Part shown: positions 55,805 through 64,000 of the stretch, one piece after another
Position numbering within the stretch: position 1 is the first letter of the stretch
How the letters are laid out: every line of letters begins with the position of its first letter
Source: Chitinophaga lutea
GTDB taxonomy: Bacteria > Bacteroidota > Bacteroidia > Chitinophagales > Chitinophagaceae
Length of the DNA: 64,000 bases
Assembly: GCF_003813775.1 (NCBI RefSeq)
Contig: NZ_RPDH01000003.1
Location: 62,001-126,000, forward strand
Direction of reading: 5' to 3'
Program-made: the position numbers and the translations under genes
The notes under the pieces: generated by a model
What the model was told of the DNA's origin: nothing
What the model saw: the letters and a program-made list of their open reading frames with translations, nothing else
The model's database searches: none

Positions 55805-56815
55805 TTACAGTACCTGGCCTGCTTCGCGCGCCGGCTGGCCGAGCCTGATCTGCTGCGGTGAGCACCCGAAGTGTTTCCGGAATGCTTTGCTGAAATGGCT
55901 GATATGGCTGTACCCGGAGAGCAGCGCCACTTCGCTGACCTTTTTCCTTTCGTGCAGCAGCAGGTGTTTGGCCTTTTCCATGCGGGTTTGCTGGATGTAA
56001 CCGTACACCGTGGTGCCGAATATTTTTTTGAAGTGGCGCTTCAGGTAACATTCGTTGGTGTCCGCCATCTGGGCCAGCACGGGCAGCGAATGGGGATTGT
56101 GCAGGTGTTGCAGGATGATGTCGCGCACGAGGTGCATCTTCTGTACATCCGCCGGCCTGACGCCTTCGCTGTTCGGGATAAGCTGCGCCTGCATTTCAGA
56201 CAGCTGCAGCAATTGCAGGGAAATCAGTTCCAGTGTTTTGGCTTTGAGGAACACCCTTTTATGCGCCGGTTCCATTTTGCAGTGCAGCATATCGTAAATG
56301 ATGCGGAGCATGGCGGGTGTGATGGGCAGGTTCTGCGGGCTGAGGGTTACCGGCTCCGTATGGTGCTGCATGGCGGCCAGGAAAGGATGCCTCTCCGGGA
56401 GTTGCTGCTGGAAAAAGTCCGGCGTGATATTGATCTCGAAGGTTTCCACCGCCTCACCAGGCAGCCATTCCACCACGGTTTGCCGGGGCGGCAGCCAAAC
56501 GATGTTGTATTCCCGCGGGTGAAAGACGGCAAAGGGAGGCGCCGCTTCATGGCTCGTATACCGGCTGCTGCATCGCAGGGAAAAGTTGATGTGTATGAAT
56601 GGGGACGGGTATTCCACCAGCATCCGCTTTTTTTCCGCGAGCTGTACCTTCCCATACCAGATGAAAATGCCGTCTGACGAATGCAGTTCATGGATGGTTT
56701 CCTCTTTTCCCGAATGTATGGCGCTTTGCCTGGTTTCCGTTACTGTCCGCTGTTCGTTAGGTTTTGGGAAATAATAAAAATAATCAGGTATCGGAACAGC
56801 GTTTGATCCGTTCAT
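55805..56815 (-). CDS. AraC-family transcriptional regulator
   Basis: I chose the ATG at 56815 (MNGSNAVPIPDYFYYF), 336 residues. The frame reaches 56947 but the extra part would overlap the divergent regulatory region. The N-terminal two thirds are a sensing region without a recognised fold, with LEYPSPFIHINFSLRC-like strands. The C-terminal AraC DNA-binding domain (about 230-325) has two helix-turn-helices (SLPVLAQMADTNECYLKRHF and KVSEVALLSGYSHISHFSKA). It is convergent with locus D and divergent from the HMA-AraC regulator. What it senses and controls is unknown. Confidence 0.92.
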   Translation of the reverse strand: MNGSNAVPIPDYFYYFPKPNEQRTVTETRQSAIHSGKEETIHELHSSDGIFIWYGKVQLAEKKRMLVEYPSPFIHINFSLRCSSRYTSHEAAPPFAVFHPREYNIVWLPPRQTVVEWLPGEAVETFEINITPDFFQQQLPERHPFLAAMQHHTEPVTLSPQNLPITPAMLRIIYDMLHCKMEPAHKRVFLKAKTLELISLQLLQLSEMQAQLIPNSEGVRPADVQKMHLVRDIILQHLHNPHSLPVLAQMADTNECYLKRHFKKIFGTTVYGYIQQTRMEKAKHLLLHERKKVSEVALLSGYSHISHFSKAFRKHFGCSPQQIRLGQPAREAGQVL

Positions 56816-56892: not shown

Positions 56893-56952
56893 AATTATGT
56901 ACAACTTCCCCCCAATTATGTAACAAATACCGCCCTGTTTGCCCCATCTTTG
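56893..56952 (+). promoter_or_regulatory. Operator/promoter of the HMA-AraC regulator gene (copy 1 of 4)
   Basis: Half-sites AATTATGTACAA (56893-56904) and AATTATGTAACA (starting 56914) lie in direct orientation 21 bp apart. A -7 like box CATCTTTG (56945-56952) follows 31 bp after the second half-site. The second half-site covers the usual -33 position, which suggests activator-dependent transcription. Found also before copA, copZ and the HYC gene. Confidence 0.75.
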
Positions 56953-56974
56953 TACATTCAAACAGCCAGGCCTT

Positions 56975-57550
56975 ATGGTGAGCGAATATAAAATACAGAT
57001 AAAAGGAATGGTCTGCGACCGCTGCGTTGCCGCCATCCGGGAGGCATTACAGGAACTGCACATACCGGTGACCGACATCCGGCTGGGAGAGGTGACGACC
57101 GTATCGGCGCTGACCCCACCGGATATGGAAGCCATCGCCCGCAAACTGGAGCCCCTGGGCTTCACTCTCGTGGAAGACAAACGCACCCGGTTGGTGCGCG
57201 ACGTGAAGATGCTCGTGGAACAGGTCTATTCCGGAGAATACGATTTTCCCGACGACTTCCGGTTCTCGGATGTGGTGGTGGACCATTTCAACCGGGACTA
57301 CAGTACCGTCAGCCAGACCTTCTCCGCCGTGGAAGGCATCACCCTCGAAAAATACCTCATGGAATACCGGATTGAAAAGGTGAAGGAGCTGCTGGTGTAT
57401 ACGGACGAACCATTGTCGTCCATCGCCTTCAAGCTGGGCTTCAGCAGCACGGCCCATCTCAGCCGCCAGTTCAAGTCCATCACCGGCCTGAACGCCTCTT
57501 ACTTCAAGGAGATCCGCCGGGAGAAGCTGGCCGGCCGCGGGAAACCGTAA
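56975..57550 (+). CDS. One-component regulator: HMA metal-binding domain fused to AraC-type HTH
   Basis: The ATG at 56975 yields 191 residues. The N-terminal 65 residues are an HMA-like ferredoxin-fold domain with the metal-binding loop GMVCDRC (C14, C17), where the strand-loop-helix order and ITDIRLGEV-like second strand fit. The C-terminal 105 residues are an AraC/XylS DNA-binding domain with two helix-turn-helices (TVSQTFSAVEGITLEKYLM and LSSIAFKLGFSSTAHLSRQF). I infer that Cu(I) or a similar soft metal bound by the CxxC pair changes DNA binding. Its own promoter carries the same 21-bp-spaced half-sites as copA, so it is probably autoregulated. The copA gene follows 77 bp downstream under its own operator. 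Confidence 0.88.
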   Translation: MVSEYKIQIKGMVCDRCVAAIREALQELHIPVTDIRLGEVTTVSALTPPDMEAIARKLEPLGFTLVEDKRTRLVRDVKMLVEQVYSGEYDFPDDFRFSDVVVDHFNRDYSTVSQTFSAVEGITLEKYLMEYRIEKVKELLVYTDEPLSSIAFKLGFSSTAHLSRQFKSITGLNASYFKEIRREKLAGRGKP

Positions 57551-57611
57551 AATTATATACAATTCCCCTTTAAAAGTGTAACACCCGCCCCCCGCACCTG
57601 CCGTAGCTTTG
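57551..57611 (+). promoter_or_regulatory. Operator/promoter of copA (copy 2 of 4)
   Basis: Half-sites AATTATATACAA (57551-57562) and AAAAGTGTAACA (57572-57583) are 21 bp apart. The perfect -7 box TAGCTTTG (57604-57611) lies 32 bp after the second half-site start. The copA ATG is at 57628, so the leader is about 10 bases. Confidence 0.75.
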
Positions 57612-57627
57612 TTGAAAATTACATCAT

Positions 57628-59883
57628 ATGTCATCAGCTATAGCAGTGCAGCCACCGGCTGCCGGGAATAAAAAAACGGGCCTCGCGAAGGATACTTTTC
57701 CGGTTCTGGAAATGACCTGCGCCGCCTGCGCCGTCAGCGTGGAATCGATGCTGAAAAACACGCCGGGCGTGCAGGATGCGGGTGTCAACTTCGCCAACCA
57801 GACGGCATGGGTGCAATACGACCCCGCCGCCGTAACGCCCGCCGCATTGCAGAACACCGTGCGCTCCATCGGGTACGACCTGGTGATCGATAAAGAGAAC
57901 CAGGACGAAGTCAAAGAGGAAGCGCAGCGCAAACACTTCCAGGCGGTTAAACAACGGACCATCTGGTCGTCCCTGCTCTCATTGCCCATCGTGATCATCG
58001 GGATGTTTTTTATGGACATGCCCTACGGTAACTGGATCATGATGGCGCTGGCCACCCCTGTGATATTCATCTTCGGCCGCAACTTTTTCCTGAACGCCTG
58101 GAAGCAGGCCCGCCACGGTAAAGCCAATATGGACACCCTGGTGGCGCTCAGCACCGGCATCGCATATCTGTTCAGTGCTTTCAACACTTTTTACCCTGAA
58201 TTCTGGCACCAGCGCGGCCTGCACGCTCACGTATACTTCGAAGCCGCCGCCGTGGTGATCGCTTTTATTTCGCTGGGTAAACTGCTGGAAGAGAAAGCCA
58301 AATCCAATACCTCTTCCGCCATCAAAAAACTCATCGGCCTGCAGCCTAAAACAGTGCTGCGGGTGGAAGCAGACGGACAGCTGCAGGAAGTGCCCATTTC
58401 GGCCGTGCAGGTGAACGACCGCCTGCTGGTGAAACCGGGTGAAAAAATCCCGGTAGACGGGGTGGTGGCTGCCGGCGACTCTTATGTAGACGAAAGCATG
58501 ATCACCGGGGAACCGGTGCCCGTAGCCAAAAAGAACGGGGACGCCGTATTTGCCGGCACCATCAACCAGAAAGGCAGCTTCCAGTTTACCGCCGAAAAAG
58601 TAGGAACAGACACCCTGCTGGCGCAGATCATCAAAATGGTGCAGGAAGCGCAGGGAAGTAAAGCGCCCGTGCAGAAACTGGTGGACAAGATCGCCGGGAT
58701 ATTCGTGCCCGTGGTGATCGGTATTGCGATACTCACTTTCATTACCTGGATGGTATTGGGGGGAGAACATGCCTTCACCCACGCCCTGCTCACTTCGGTG
58801 ACGGTGCTGGTGATCGCCTGCCCCTGCGCCCTGGGGCTCGCCACACCCACCGCCATCATGGTAGGGGTAGGCAAAGGCGCCGAAAACAATATCCTCATCA
58901 AAGACGCGGAAAGCCTCGAACAGGCGCATAAAGTAAATGCGGTGATCCTCGATAAAACCGGCACCATCACGGAAGGCAAACCGGTAGTGACCGATATCGT
59001 GTGGAACAATGATACCGTATATGCCGGGGTATTGCTCGCGCTGGAGCAGCAGTCTGAACACCCGCTGGCGGAAGCCGTGGTGACGCACCTGAAGGAAGGC
59101 GGCGTACAACCCGCCGCATTGCAGGGTTTTGAAAGCATCACCGGTCAGGGTATCAAAGGCCGCTATGATAAAACCGAATTTTATGTTGGCAACAAACGGC
59201 TGATGGATGCCAACAGGATCGCCATTCCGCCGCAGCTGGCTTACCAGGCGGGTTCCCTGCAGGAAGAGGCTAAAACCGTGATCTATTTTGCGGCAGGCAA
59301 TACGCTGCTGGCCATCATCGCCATTGCCGACAAAATAAAAGCCACGTCGGCCGCTGCCATCGCGGCGCTGCGTAAGAGCGGCATCGAGGTGTACATGCTT
59401 ACCGGCGATAACCAGCATACGGCGGCCGCTGTCGCCAAACAGGTGGGCATCACCACCTACAAGGCGGAAGTAATGCCGGCCTATAAATCCGAGTTCGTCA
59501 AAGAACTGCAAAAGGCCGGGAAAGTGGTGGCGATGGTGGGAGACGGCATCAACGACTCCCAGGCGCTGGCGCAGGCCGATGTAAGCATCGCGATGGGCAA
59601 AGGTTCCGATATCGCGATGGATGTGGCGAAAATGACGCTCATCACGTCCGATCTCACCAGCATACCCAAAGCCCTGAAACTCTCGCGCAAAACCGTGAGC
59701 GCCATCAAACAGAACCTGTTCTGGGCATTCATTTACAATATCATCGGCATACCGCTGGCGGCGGGCGTGCTCTTCCCCGTTAACGGCTTCCTGCTCGACC
59801 CGATGATCGCAGGCGCGGCCATGGCCCTCAGTTCCGTTAGCGTGGTAGGCAACAGCCTCCGTTTAAAAGCAGCATCCCTTTAA
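57628..59883 (+). CDS. copA: Copper-translocating P1B-type ATPase
   Basis: This is a 751-residue inner-membrane pump that exports Cu(I) from the cytoplasm. It has an N-terminal HMA domain with EMTCAAC (C31, C34), eight TM helices, the actuator loop [29 protein letters not shown], the metal-site CPC (C398-P399-C400), the phosphorylation motif DKTGT (D442), the nucleotide-domain HP motif ([10 protein letters not shown]) and GDGIND (D639). Only one HMA domain is present. The ferredoxin-type reductase gene starts 4 bp after its stop. A full 21-bp operator pair lies upstream, so it should be induced by the HMA-AraC regulator. Confidence 0.97.
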
Positions 59884-59887
59884 TCAT

Positions 59888-60904
59888 ATGACGAATACAT
59901 ATACCTGGCGTACCGCCGCCCTTATCAGAGAAACCCACGATACCGTGACCGTTCGCTTTGATACCGGCGGCACGCCCTTTTCATACAGGCCCGGCCAGTT
60001 CATCAATCTCACCCTCACCATCAACGGCGCGCGCGTAACGCGTTCGTATTCGCTGAGCTCCTGTCCGGGTGAGGACGCCCATCCCGCCATTACCGTCAAA
60101 CAGGTAACAGGCGGCCTGATGAGCACCTTCATCGTGCAGCAGGCAGCGGACATCAAGGAATGGCAGGTAGCTGGTCCCCACGGCGCGTTTACGCCTTCGG
60201 ATAACGCCTATGCCGCAACGAACGTGGTATTGCTGGCGGGAGGGAGCGGCATCACGCCCCTGTGGTCCATCGCACGCGCCATCCGCCGCTTTACACCGCA
60301 GCCGCAGCTGTCACTGGTGTATTCCAGCCGGACGGCAAACGATATCATTTTCCGCGAGGCCATCGAAACCTCCGGCGTGCAGGCCTATCATGCCTTGTCG
60401 CAGCCGGCGGAAGGATTCGGCGGCCGCCTCAACAAACTGGTGGTCAAAAAACTGATCAAAAACGCCGTGCCGCAACCGCAGGAGAATACGCATTATTTCA
60501 TCTGCGGCCCCGCCGCGCTGATGAAAATGCACCTGGAGGTATTGTCGGGGTTGGGTGTGCCGGAAGCGCATATTCACAAGGAGTATTTTCAACCGGAGGC
60601 CGATGCGCCCGCGCCGGAACTGCCGCAGCAGATGCAGGAGGTGCTGATGCATTTTTATGACCAGTATAACCTGCTTGAAGTGCAGCCCGGCCAGACCATC
60701 CTTTCCGCCGCCCTTGCCGATCACGTTCCCGTGCCTTATTCGTGCAACAACGGCACCTGCGGCACCTGTACGGCCCGTGTAACGGCCGGCAGGGTGAGCA
60801 TGGCCAATAATTACGCCCTGCGGAACAGCGAGGTGGAACAGGGCATGGTGCTGCTCTGCCAGAGTTACCCCCTGACGCCCGACGTAACGGTGCAGATCGG
60901 GTAA
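59888..60904 (+). CDS. FAD/NAD(P)H oxidoreductase with C-terminal 2Fe-2S ferredoxin domain
   Basis: This 338-residue cytoplasmic protein has the order of PaaE/VanB-type reductases: an FAD-binding domain with RPGQFINLTLTINGARVTRSYSLSS (RxYS motif, about 35-60), an NAD(P)-binding domain with LLAGGSGITPLWSI (about 114-127) and FICGPAALMK, and a plant-type ferredoxin domain with C286-x4-C291-x2-C294 and C324. It starts 4 bp after copA and is surely co-transcribed. Its partner is unknown. It could keep copper or iron in reduced form, or supply electrons to an enzyme elsewhere. Confidence 0.92.
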   Translation: MTNTYTWRTAALIRETHDTVTVRFDTGGTPFSYRPGQFINLTLTINGARVTRSYSLSSCPGEDAHPAITVKQVTGGLMSTFIVQQAADIKEWQVAGPHGAFTPSDNAYAATNVVLLAGGSGITPLWSIARAIRRFTPQPQLSLVYSSRTANDIIFREAIETSGVQAYHALSQPAEGFGGRLNKLVVKKLIKNAVPQPQENTHYFICGPAALMKMHLEVLSGLGVPEAHIHKEYFQPEADAPAPELPQQMQEVLMHFYDQYNLLEVQPGQTILSAALADHVPVPYSCNNGTCGTCTARVTAGRVSMANNYALRNSEVEQGMVLLCQSYPLTPDVTVQIG

Positions 60905-60907
60905 TTA

Positions 60908-60968
60908 AATTATATAAAACGTATGGCCAATTGTATAACAGCGGCCGGGCACAATCGAAGTAATTTTA
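60908..60968 (+). promoter_or_regulatory. Operator/promoter of the CopZ-like gene (copy 3 of 4)
   Basis: Half-sites AATTATATAAAA (60908-60919) and AATTGTATAACA (60929-60940) are 21 bp apart, with -7 like TAATTTTA (60961-60968) 32 bp after the second half-site. The start codon is at 60996. Confidence 0.75.
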
Positions 60969-60995
60969 CATCATCAACGAAAAAATTCAAACATC

Positions 60996-61208
60996 ATGGA
61001 TACGATTCAATTCAGGACGAACATCAAATGTTCCGGCTGTATCGCCAAAGTAACCCCTTCGCTGAACGAACTGGCGGGGGAAGATAACTGGGAAGTGGAC
61101 CTGCAGAGCGCGGACAAGATACTCACCGTATCAACGGAACAAACAGACGGGAAAAAGATCAAAGAGGCCATCGAAAAGGCCGGGTACAAGGCGGAGCAGG
61201 TTGCTTAA
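60996..61208 (+). CDS. CopZ-like HMA metallochaperone
   Basis: This is a 70-residue cytoplasmic protein with a single HMA fold: TNIKCSGC (metal loop C12, C15), AKVTPSLNELAGEDNWEVDL and the C-terminal KIKEAIEKAGYKAEQV. Bacterial homologues carry Cu(I) to CopA-type ATPases and metal-responsive regulators. Cx2C lacks the Met usually before the first Cys of CopZ (here K), which is a minor departure. It has its own operator pair and terminator, so it is a one-gene unit within the copper cluster. Confidence 0.9.
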   Translation: MDTIQFRTNIKCSGCIAKVTPSLNELAGEDNWEVDLQSADKILTVSTEQTDGKKIKEAIEKAGYKAEQVA

Positions 61209-61213
61209 CGAAT

Positions 61214-61240
61214 AAAGGGCGGTGCATTCCGCCCTTTTTT
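61214..61240 (+). terminator. Rho-independent terminator of the CopZ-like gene
   Basis: AAAGGGCGG (61214-61222) and CCGCCCTTT (61229-61237) pair perfectly around a 6-base loop, followed by T. Confidence 0.92.
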
Positions 61241-61255
61241 GATGCCCCTGTTCCG

Positions 61256-61316
61256 ATAAATGTAAAAGAATACCCGAATTATGTAACAATCCCGCCACGG
61301 CGGGCCGCTATCTTTA
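61256..61316 (+). promoter_or_regulatory. Operator/promoter of the HYC/CusA transcription unit (copy 4 of 4)
   Basis: Half-sites ATAAATGTAAAA (61256-61267) and AATTATGTAACA (61277-61288) are 21 bp apart, and the second is identical to that of copy 1. TATCTTTA (61309-61316) follows at 32 bp. The ATG at 61324 leaves a leader of only a few bases, nearly leaderless. Confidence 0.75.
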
Positions 61317-61323
61317 CTTCGCA

Positions 61324-61701
61324 ATGAAAAAGTTCCTGGTACTCGTTTTACTCACGCTTTACATGGGCTCCTCCACGGGCGCCACCCTCCGCATGCATTA
61401 TTGCAAGGGCCGCCTCGTTGAAGTGCAGCTCACTGCCGGCGCCGACGGGCATTGCACGATGTGCGGCGCCGCTACGGCAGGGAGCTGCTGCAAAAGCGAG
61501 CACAAAACCGTCAAGCTGGATAAAGACCAGCAAGCCGCCGGGAGCGCTGCCTGGACGTTGCCCGAGGCCGAAGTGGCTACGCCGCTGTTGCTGATGGCGC
61601 CGGCGGCTCCCGTGCAGATGGCCGCGCACCGGCCTGCCAGCCATGCGCCGCCACAGGGCAAGGTGCATCCCAATATCCTGCATTGCATTTTCCGTATCTG
61701 A
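61324..61701 (+). CDS. Small secreted Cys/His-rich protein of the HYC type
   Basis: This is a 125-residue protein with a signal peptide (MKKFLVLVLLTLYMGSSTGA). Its Cys/His residues fall in HYC (25-27), CTMC (44-47), SCC (53-55) with a nearby His, and a final HC near the C-terminus (ILHCIFRI). It resembles short Bacteroidota proteins named for HYC and CC motifs, whose function is unknown. The position under a copper operator and before a CusA-type pump suggests a periplasmic copper-binding or delivery role. This is inference. Confidence 0.75.
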   Translation: MKKFLVLVLLTLYMGSSTGATLRMHYCKGRLVEVQLTAGADGHCTMCGAATAGSCCKSEHKTVKLDKDQQAAGSAAWTLPEAEVATPLLLMAPAAPVQMAAHRPASHAPPQGKVHPNILHCIFRI

Positions 61702-61828: not shown

Positions 61829-63118
61829 ATGGTACATCGTATGATTGAATGGTCGCTGCGCAACCGGTTCATAGTGCTGGTGATGGGCGCCGCTTTATTC
61901 GCCTGGGGCGTGTATTCGGTGAAAAAGAACCCCATCGACGCCATCCCCGACCTTTCCGAAAACCAGGTCATCGTATTTACGGAATGGATGGGCCGCGGTC
62001 CGCAGCTGATAGAAGACCAGGTGACCTACCCGCTGGTGACCAACCTCCAGGGCCTGCCCCGCATCAAATACGTGCGCGGCTCCTCCATGTTCGGCATGAG
62101 TTTCATCTACGTGATTTTTGAAGACGACGTGGATGTGTACTGGGCCCGTGAAAGAGTGCTCGAAAGGCTGAGCACCGTATCCAGCACCCTGCCGGATGGC
62201 GTTACGCCGCAACTGGGCCCCGACGGCACCGGCGTGGGCCACATCCTCTGGTATACGCTCGATGCGCCGCAGATGGACCTCGGCGAGCAGCGGGCCCTGC
62301 AGGACTGGTACATCAAATTCGCCCTCCAGAACGTGCCGGGCGTGAGCGAGATCGCTTCCTTCGGCGGGTTCCAGAAACAATACCAGATCACGGTCGACCC
62401 GAATAAACTGCTCTATTACCGCCTCACCGTACCGCAGGTCATCAATGCCATCCGCACGAACAACAACGAGTCGGGCGGCCGGAAATTCGAACTGAGCGAT
62501 ATCGGGTATATCATCAAAACATCCGGGTATTTAAAATCCACCGAAGAGATCGCCAACATCCCCGTGGCCAACCAGAACAGCATTCCCGTACGGGTGGCCG
62601 ACGTGGCCACCGTGCAGATGACGGGCGAAACGCGCCTCGGCATCTTCGACCAGGACGGTAAAGGCGAACGCGTGGGCGGTATCGTGGTGATGCGGTACGG
62701 CGAAAATGCCGACGCGGTGATCACCAAAGTGAAAGAACGTATGAAGGAAGTGTCCAAAGGCCTGCCGGAAGGCGTGAAGTTCGATATCGTGTACGATCGC
62801 GGCGAGCTGATCAGGGAATCGGTGGCTTCCATCAAAAACACGCTGATCGAAGAAATGATCGTGGTGTCGCTCGTGGTGATCGTATTCCTCTTTCACTGGC
62901 GCAGCGCACTGAGCATCATCATCCAGATCCCCATCACCATCGCCGCCAGCTTCATTTTACTGAACGCCTTCGGCATCTCTTCCAATATCATGTCGCTCAC
63001 CGGTATCGCGCTCGCCATCGGGGTGATCGTCGACAACGGGATTATCATGAGCGAAAACGCTTATAAACACCTGGCCGAACGCTACGCGCTGTGGCAGGAA
63101 CAACAAAAAACGCAATAA
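61829..63118 (+). CDS. CusA/CzcA-type RND metal efflux pump, N-terminal part
   Basis: This 429-residue product starts at the ATG at 61829 (MVHRMIEWSLRNRFIVLVMG). The frame is open to 61772 but the upstream residues are not pump-like. It covers TM1 (SLRNRFIVLVMGAALFAW), the first periplasmic loop with DAIPDLSENQVIVFTEW typical of the heavy-metal RND class, and TM2-TM4 up to GIALAIGVIVDNGIIMSENAYK, then stops at a TAA (63116-63118) in the cytoplasmic loop where full-length pumps continue. The rest of the pump is encoded in another frame 3 bp later. It should form the inner-membrane part of a CusCBA-type Cu/Ag efflux complex. Confidence 0.88.
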   Translation: MVHRMIEWSLRNRFIVLVMGAALFAWGVYSVKKNPIDAIPDLSENQVIVFTEWMGRGPQLIEDQVTYPLVTNLQGLPRIKYVRGSSMFGMSFIYVIFEDDVDVYWARERVLERLSTVSSTLPDGVTPQLGPDGTGVGHILWYTLDAPQMDLGEQRALQDWYIKFALQNVPGVSEIASFGGFQKQYQITVDPNKLLYYRLTVPQVINAIRTNNNESGGRKFELSDIGYIIKTSGYLKSTEEIANIPVANQNSIPVRVADVATVQMTGETRLGIFDQDGKGERVGGIVVMRYGENADAVITKVKERMKEVSKGLPEGVKFDIVYDRGELIRESVASIKNTLIEEMIVVSLVVIVFLFHWRSALSIIIQIPITIAASFILLNAFGISSNIMSLTGIALAIGVIVDNGIIMSENAYKHLAERYALWQEQQKTQ

Positions 63119-63120
63119 CA

Positions 63121-64000
63121 TGAAATGGTTCAGGAACATATTTAAAAAACCGCCGCAGTGGATCAGCGAAGAAGAGCGCCTGAAAGTGATTGAAGGGGCC
63201 AGCAAGCAGGTGTCGCGCGGCGTGTTTTTCGCCACCATCATCATCATCACGTCTTTCCTGCCGGTATTCATGCTTACCGGGCAGGAGGGCAAACTGTTTC
63301 ACCCGCTGGCTTTCACCAAAACGTTCATCATGATCGTGGACGCCTTGCTGGTGCTCACGCTGGCGCCGGTGCTCATTTCATTTTTCATGAAAGGGAAGTT
63401 CCGGCCAGACAATGCCAACCCGGTGAACCGCTTCCTCGAAAAAATATACGAGCCCATTATCCGCACGGTGCTGAAGTGGCGGAAAACCACCATCGCCATC
63501 AACATCCTGGCGCTGGTGATCACCATCCCCCTGCTGAAAAGTCTCGGCAGCGAATTCATGCCGCCGCTCGACGAACAGAGCATCCTGTTCATGCCCGTGA
63601 CCCTGCCCGACGTATCGAACGCGGAAGCGAAACGTATTCTGCAGGTGCAGGACAAGATCATCCGCAGCGTGCCCGAAGTGGAAAAGGTGCTGGGCAAAGC
63701 AGGGCGGGCCAGTACGGCTACGGACAATTCGCCCATCAGCATGATCGAAACCATCATCATGCTCAAACCGGCATCCGAATGGCGCGAAGGCATCACCAAA
63801 AAAGACATCATCAACGAGCTGGATGCGAAACTCCAGATCCCCGGCGTGGTGAACGGGTGGACGCAGCCCATCATCAACCGCATCAACATGCTGGCCACCG
63901 GCATCCGTACGGATGTGGGCGTGAAAGTGTACGGGCAGAACCTCGATACCATCGCCGCAGTGTCTGAGCGCGTGAAGCAGGCGCTGGAAGGCACGGCGGG
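63121..64000 (+). CDS. CusA/CzcA-type RND metal efflux pump, C-terminal part (3' end outside window)
   Basis: This plus-strand frame starts at the ATG at 63121 (MKWFRNIFKKPPQW) and is open to the window end. It takes up the pump where the first part stops: SEEERLKVIEGASKQVSRGVFF and the TM ATIIIITSFLPVFML, then TM segments and the second periplasmic region (SEFMPPLDEQSILFM, ATGIRTDVGVKVYG). A one-base shift at the A-run just before the first part's stop would join the two frames, giving the expected full-length pump, so this may be a frameshifted gene, recoding, or a genuine two-part pump. Confidence 0.85.

Follow-up and report, generated by a model that had tools for sequence, protein, structure and literature searches.

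How a cluster of copper genes is controlled when four of its transcription units carry the same repeated element is the question raised by a 64,000-nucleotide stretch of Chitinophaga lutea DNA, analyzed here at its full length and referred to as the window. The cluster encodes a 191-residue protein that joins an HMA domain to an AraC-type DNA-binding domain (HMA-AraC), and two direct half-sites stand 5′ of the genes for this regulator, for the copper ATPase CopA, for a CopZ-like protein and for a HYC_CC_PP family (HYC) protein (Table 1). An earlier note made from the sequence (the original prediction) had taken these pairs for one regulon driven by an activator, most likely the HMA-AraC protein of the cluster itself. 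Our analysis indicates that each half-site pair is very probably an operator of the HMA-AraC family, lying in the position of a class-II activator.

Four half-site pairs share one spacing and one promoter register

Read directly from the sequence and with all offsets re-derived, the half-sites resemble AATTATGTAACA and are 21 bp apart, start to start, in all four pairs; every coordinate of the original prediction holds. Measured from the first base of the second half-site, the -7-like boxes begin at 31, 32, 32 and 32 bp (CATCTTTG, TAGCTTTG, TAATTTTA and TATCTTTA, respectively), and TAnnTTTG is the -7 consensus published for Flavobacterium psychrophilum (PMC9723704). We could not detect TTTG or TTG 17–25 bp 5′ of the -7 box in any of the four window promoters or in any of the 36 box-bearing promoters of related loci, and both the box offsets and the missing -33 boxes noted earlier are reproduced. 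When a matrix trained on three units was used to score the 127,936 placements of the window (both strands), the held-out fourth unit ranked, in turn, 2, 4, 3 and 4 (pair scores are 31.6–37.1). The placements outranking a held-out unit came from its three training units, and the best scores elsewhere in the window were 16.5–19.1.

In the whole C. lutea genome (6,609,774 bases), the pair pattern returns five matches at up to three mismatches, and the reversed-pattern control returns none. Four matches are the window operators. The fifth, at C2:242159, is absent from the original prediction. It carries a -7 box, TATTTTTG, 20 bp behind its second half, which is the offset seen in the window, and is followed by genes for a DUF3347 lipoprotein (PF11827, 87.2 bits) and a haem-binding protein (PF14376, 148.4 bits). 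In another genome of the genus (G462), copA and copZ carry sites, and the genes that follow copZ code for a protein with a DUF3347 match of 74.7 bits and for a multicopper oxidase (PF07732, 144.2 bits); from this gene order, DUF3347 is likely to have a role connected with copper.

A single AraC DNA-binding domain contains two helix-turn-helices (HTHs), which together cover one half-site. The 21-bp repeat would thus correspond to two protomers, and we correct the earlier wording, which had matched it to the two HTHs of one AraC domain. Judged by their sequence, the pairs appear to have the tandem direct half-sites near the -35/-33 element that characterize AraC/XylS operators. Direct half-sites at a distance of two helical turns, a proximal half-site at -33 and the lack of a -33 box fit class-II activation by two tandem protomers. 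With a -7 box kept 19–20 bp further on and no -33 box, the sigma factor most likely depends on contact with the regulator at its site.

The putative operator recurs at related loci

The named related loci are the best 80 of 536, and the nearest of them belong to Chitinophaga. Across 109 loci (113 minus four of the C. lutea genome itself), both halves score at least 10 with the window matrix in 39 cases at a spacing of 21 bp, and in at most 5 cases at any other spacing between 12 and 40 bp. The 20 near loci, in which the regulator is at least 48.5% identical (404,659 bases), contain 42 pairs that score at least 20. Thirty-eight of these are located within 150 bp 5′ of a cluster gene, namely that of the regulator (12), CopA (10), CopZ (8), HYC (5) or the oxidoreductase (3), and a -7 box TTT[GAC] is found at +23/+24 in 36 of the 38, with the full TAnnTTT at +19/+20 in 26. 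The leading T of the box is missing in the regulator's own promoters (CATCTTTG in the window) and is as a rule present in those of copA, copZ and HYC.

We also derived the motif with the window's clade left out, using 201 flanks (250 bp up- and downstream) of 101 HMA-AraC genes, two of which are the C. lutea paralogues outside the window; loci L004–L023 and L084 were excluded. A tied 12-mer pair tried at 19 spacings (14–32 bp) scored 470 at 21 bp, 229.5 at 22 bp and 98–184 at the 17 others; shuffled letters gave ∼71 at 21 bp. The resulting consensus, AAATTnTRTAAc, has the same core as the window sites. Sites at threshold occur in 70 of the 201 flanks and at 63 of the 101 genes. The site is downstream of the regulator, ahead of the next gene, in 58 of the 70 flanks and upstream in 12. 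TTT[GA] follows at +25 in 47 sites and at +24 in 10, one base further on than in the window because the clade-free matrix starts one base earlier. If near-clade flanks are included, 79 of 219 flanks show a site, compared with 3 of 95 stretches drawn at random from these loci (coding sequence included, one strand) and 0–8 of 219 flanks at eight other spacings, controls that are weak because the matrix was derived from those same flanks. The spacing tests and the reversed controls for the pattern that includes the -7 box rule out AT-rich noise as the source of the motif.

Putative operator and HMA-AraC genes occur in the same genomes

An HMA-AraC match (E ≤ 1e-20) is present in 142 of 296 Bacteroidota genomes. 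The pair plus -7 box (at most one mismatch) is found in 32 of the 296, C. lutea included, and all 32 are among the 142 positives (hypergeometric 8e-12), with no match to the reversed pattern. At the family level, 45 of 244 genomes contain the pair plus -7 box. An HMA-AraC match at E ≤ 1e-30 is present in 174 of the 244, including 44 of these 45, and the reversed pattern matches once in total. The exception is G468, a genome of 63% completeness whose contig stops inside a partial HMA-AraC-like match. A scan of this kind, in related Chitinophagaceae genomes, had been proposed with the original prediction.

Some HMA-AraC match is present in each of the 79 genomes of the genus, and 59 of them carry a slightly modified pattern that includes the -7 box (reversed controls are 0). 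This pattern is present in 25 of the 27 genomes with a close orthologue of the window regulator (E ≤ 1e-59) and in 34 of the 52 without one (one-sided p is 0.006, counted by hand). On account of the latter 34, we assign the operator to the HMA-AraC family, whose paralogues probably share it.

C. lutea itself has three HMA-AraC matches, two of which are paralogues outside the window (genome G000, loci L114 and L115). One (C1:591480–592019) lies behind HYC and HMA genes and near cbb3-oxidase genes (FixP, FixG), and the other (C2:651939–652481) adjoins Sulf_transp (YeeE-type) genes. In the 18 kb around each paralogue, we found no direct repeats of at least 9/12 accompanied by a -7 box.

The regulator combines an HMA domain with an AraC-type DNA-binding domain

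The AraC-type HTH matches of the regulator exceed the Pfam cut-offs (PF12833, 60.9 bits versus 33.6; PF00165, 28.8 bits versus 26.6), and its C-terminal domain of ∼100 residues contains two HTHs, as in AraC/XylS proteins, with the model helices spanning residues 97–187. The AlphaFold model (mean predicted local distance difference test score is 89, predicted template modelling score is 0.69) has the order strand-helix-strand-strand-helix-strand, linker helix, two-HTH domain. The N-terminal part is thus predicted to adopt the ferredoxin-like HMA fold with the CXXC motif in its first loop, and the HMA assignment is also backed by phmmer sequence matches to the HMA chains of copper ATPases (PDB IDs 1p6t and 2rml). 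The motif MVCDRC (residues 12–17) contains both of the regulator's only cysteines. MVCxRC is present in all 131 family members examined, which were gathered with whole-length profiles, and 117 of these have exactly two cysteines. We found no Pfam match to a kinase or receiver domain in the 191-residue protein, and no match to the CueR, CsoR or CopY families in Pfam or NCBIfam at E ≤ 0.01, its DNA-binding domain being AraC-type; the protein scores below the cut-off of every NCBIfam model.

Relatives found through their operator form a set separate from the 131. Among them, L177 and L200–L203 carry a like operator and -7 box 5′ of their own gene; in L177 the first cysteine is, as read, a serine, and a domain scan of L177 and L201 returned HTH matches only. 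HMA-AraC paralogues often stand in tandem (loci L005, L011, L012, L019 and L022; genomes G504, G516, G388 and G394). HMA-AraC genes are also found in metagenome-assembled genomes labelled Gammaproteobacteria/Woeseia or Williamsia (L077, L081, L083 and L042), by transfer or by binning error.

Genes preceded by the putative operator in other genomes

We tallied the first open reading frame after each site, with one locus per genome, where "no match" denotes no blastp match to the window proteins. In the genus (30 listed loci, C. lutea included) the first gene matches the window's CopZ in 13, CopA in 2, HYC in 2 and has no match in 13; the unmatched genes mostly code, by eye, for small Cys/His-rich or His/Met-rich exported proteins, and one for the DUF3347 protein. 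In the family (30 loci, C. lutea included) the first gene matches CopA, CopZ or HYC in 18 (two weakly), is that of an HMA-AraC relative in 1 and has no match in 11, and a desaturase and a cupin are also among the genes of these loci. The looser pattern contributes 29 listed loci (L119–L147), of which five have TAnnTTT at +20 and precede HYC (1) or CopZ (4); one more precedes CopA, and 23 have no CopA, CopZ or HYC match, one of them with a weak HMA match. In the phylum (29 loci) we find CopA in 1, a match via the HMA domain in 3, HMA-AraC relatives with degenerate CXXC in 4 and no match in 21; three of these 21 have an HMA domain at their start, recognized by Pfam in L206 and by eye in the other two.

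In family f5, which belongs to the class of C. lutea, sites precede genes for an alpha/beta hydrolase, a zinc-type dehydrogenase and weak outer-membrane beta-barrel matches. At four f5 loci (L193, L194, L195 and L199) operator and -7 box recur 5′ of beta-barrel-like genes, assigned through a weak Pfam match in L193 and through likeness in the other three. The expectation that the motif would be restricted to copper genes holds mostly within the genus and fails in other families, and on the family tree gene context gave no clean split into copper and non-copper clades.

Organization of the copper cluster

The features of the window are collected in Table 1. By position, the oxidoreductase gene belongs to one unit with copA. 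The hairpin with T run 3′ of copZ suggests that HYC and CusA apparently form a unit of their own. The CusA-like resistance-nodulation-division (RND) pump is encoded by two coupled or overlapping open reading frames with the same split point in six of six loci (the window, L004, L006, L020, L038 and L052) and stop-start junctions such as TAACATG. As the split point is identical in all six, we take the split to be natural rather than a sequencing error. In more distant CusA relatives at other loci, both parts match in one frame.

Table 1. Putative operators, promoter boxes and genes of the copper cluster (window coordinates)
Feature	Position	Strand	Remarks
Operator 1	56893..56925	+	half-sites 56893-56904 and 56914-56925; 5′ of the HMA-AraC gene
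-7-like box of HMA-AraC promoter	56945..56952	+	CATCTTTG; first letter off consensus, likewise in most orthologues
HMA-AraC regulator	56975..57550	+	191 aa; AraC-type DNA-binding domain about residues 97-187
Operator 2	57551..57583	+	half-sites 57551-57562 and 57572-57583; abuts the regulator stop codon, 5′ of copA
-7 box of copA	57604..57611	+	TAGCTTTG
CopA, copper-translocating P-type ATPase	57628..59883	+	TIGR01511, 624.7 bits versus cut-off 397
Flavin/2Fe-2S oxidoreductase	59888..60904	+	Pfam; starts 4 nt after copA
Operator 3	60908..60940	+	half-sites 60908-60919 and 60929-60940; 5′ of the CopZ-like gene
-7 box of CopZ-like gene promoter	60961..60968	+	TAATTTTA
CopZ-like HMA protein	60996..61208	+	70 aa; Pfam HMA, 36.0 bits versus 24.8
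Terminator-like hairpin and T run	61214..61240	+	3′ of copZ; fold of 61209-61245, -17.6 kcal/mol, z -3.9
Operator 4	61256..61288	+	half-sites 61256-61267 and 61277-61288; 5′ of the HYC gene
-7 box of HYC gene promoter	61309..61316	+	TATCTTTA
HYC_CC_PP family protein	61324..61701	+	NF047658, 33.4 bits versus cut-off 28
CusA-like RND pump, N-terminal part of split	61838..63118	+	CusA name from the original prediction and by eye
CusA-like RND pump, C-terminal part	63120..64000	+	continues beyond the window end

Discussion

We consider it likely that the pairs are operators of HMA-AraC regulators, which would act by class-II activation from the -33 position and respond to Cu(I) through their HMA domain. 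Each ∼12-bp half-site (core TRTAAC, with AATT ahead of it) would take one AraC-type DNA-binding domain, so that two protomers would stand in tandem on one face of the DNA, 21 bp apart, the downstream one at the position of the -33 element. The HMA domain, with its sole cysteines in MVCxRC, most likely binds Cu(I), which would convert the protein to its activating form; gene content and the CXXC motif point to copper as the most likely signal. The regulator itself, copA with the oxidoreductase, copZ, HYC/CusA and the distant DUF3347/haem-binding pair would then be induced.

Several findings weigh against this interpretation. Three of the 20 near loci (L018, L020 and L023) have no pair scoring at least 20 ahead of a cluster gene, and there is no site at threshold in 131 of the 201 remote flanks or at 38 of the 101 genes. 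The HMA match of the regulator stays under the Pfam gathering cut-off (PF00403, 21.2 bits versus 24.8, E is 3.7e-4), and an intact CXXC is missing in the five relatives L177 and L200–L203. The operator is not tied to a close orthologue, as 34 genomes of the genus keep the pattern without one. Co-occurrence in the phylum is confounded by kinship, because the HMA-AraC-negative genomes are largely found in other families (f17 has zero positives). The looser pattern (up to three mismatches, no -7 box) matches in 151 of 244 family genomes, and reversed matches are also frequent; among the matches listed, only 23 of 145 outside the C. lutea genome have a listed HMA-AraC gene within 4 kb, which is about 100 times the chance expectation of about 0.16%. 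In other families many sites stand ahead of non-copper genes, and the motif by itself is thus not a mark of copper.

It is possible, if doubtful, that the operators are recognized chiefly in trans, by either of the other two HMA-AraC paralogues of C. lutea or by all of them, with the cluster's protein as one of several. The genome has three candidates, the core is common to remote subfamilies, and the 34 genus genomes without a close orthologue contain only more distant HMA-AraC genes, some with the pattern ahead of copZ (e.g. G531) or copA. In G462, the copA-copZ-DUF3347-multicopper-oxidase locus has a site and no HMA-AraC match in the 14 kb analyzed, and the two relatives of that genome lie on other contigs. 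Yet the regulator promoters of the near clade themselves bear the site (12 sites), and the pattern is commoner where a close orthologue is present (25/27 versus 34/52). Position and co-occurrence give good support to the one HMA-AraC-activated regulon of the original prediction, and the cluster's own protein as its reader is upheld only in part.

The signal is unlikely to be another soft metal or a thiol or persulphide species instead of copper: one paralogue of C. lutea adjoins Sulf_transp genes and relatives with degenerate CXXC stand beside a like operator, but CopA passes the NCBIfam model for copper ATPases, and copA, copZ and HYC recur beside the HMA-AraC family or its sites. That HMA-AraC is a repressor, which would block sigma at -33 until released on copper binding, agrees with the overlap of the downstream half-site with that position. 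We nevertheless regard it as quite improbable, as neither the four window promoters nor the 36 of related loci contain a -33 element to block, and AraC-type proteins bound at such a position are typically activators. A different reader of the sites, such as the divergent AraC-type gene at 55805–56815, which has the intergenic region in common with operator 1, is very improbable, and this gene was rejected for lack of conservation in the 20 near loci, none of which has a one-piece match of more than 200 residues near the regulator (the sole match, in L008, is ∼9 kb off); across the phylum, moreover, the sites track HMA-AraC genes.

If the operators are indeed read by copper-activated HMA-AraC proteins, Cu(I) passed on from CopZ or from the HMA domain of CopA might, as we tentatively suggest, bridge the CXXC loops of two protomers, and a metal-made dimer of this kind would fit half-sites 21 bp apart. 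Cysteine-less sister subfamilies could then have kept the operator and been rewired to other signals, and the family might represent a widespread sensor of Bacteroidota.

Known copper-responsive control of copA/copZ-type genes involves CueR, CsoR, CopY and CusR, which have MerR, CsoR, winged-helix or response-regulator folds; to our knowledge none of them combines an HMA with an AraC-type domain. YcnK-like regulators, which are repressors with a DeoR-type HTH and a NosL-like copper-binding domain, resemble HMA-AraC in that a metal-binding domain is fused to a DNA-binding domain. The HMA domains of copper ATPases and CopZ share the fold and the CXXC motif, which in HMA-AraC is joined to a DNA-binding domain and takes the form MVCxRC. 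Escherichia coli AraC (at araI1-I2) and XylS (at Pm) are activators whose direct half-sites lie at a 21-bp distance, and their proximal half-site overlaps -35; they respond to small organic ligands at sigma-70 promoters, whereas the promoters described here are of the Bacteroidota -7/-33 type.

Closest in geometry are the AraC-type hybrid two-component systems (HTCSs) of Bacteroides: for 16 HTCSs, operators were predicted that consist of direct repeats with a mean of 21 bp, one of them comprising two 12-bp sites and a 9-bp spacer, with dimer binding predicted on one face of the DNA (PMC3878776). HTCSs share with HMA-AraC an AraC-type DNA-binding domain, the phylum and ∼21-bp direct repeats, but have a periplasmic sugar sensor, a kinase and a receiver (PMC3878776) where we find an HMA domain in a 191-residue protein associated with copper genes. 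No paper on an HMA-AraC regulator came up in searches of open-licence PubMed Central. The 21-bp direct-repeat geometry is already known (PMC3878776), and what is new is the pairing of sensor and operator and its spread.

For the Bacteroidota it examined, a survey of marine bacteria names only two-component and extracytoplasmic function sigma factor homologues for copper (PMC10141476), and copper sensing in the phylum seems little described. Here regulator family, operator and regulon are defined jointly across many genomes. The fixed promoter register makes direct tests simple, and the promoter lets unknown copper genes be found, among them HYC, DUF3347, the split CusA and small Cys/His-rich proteins.

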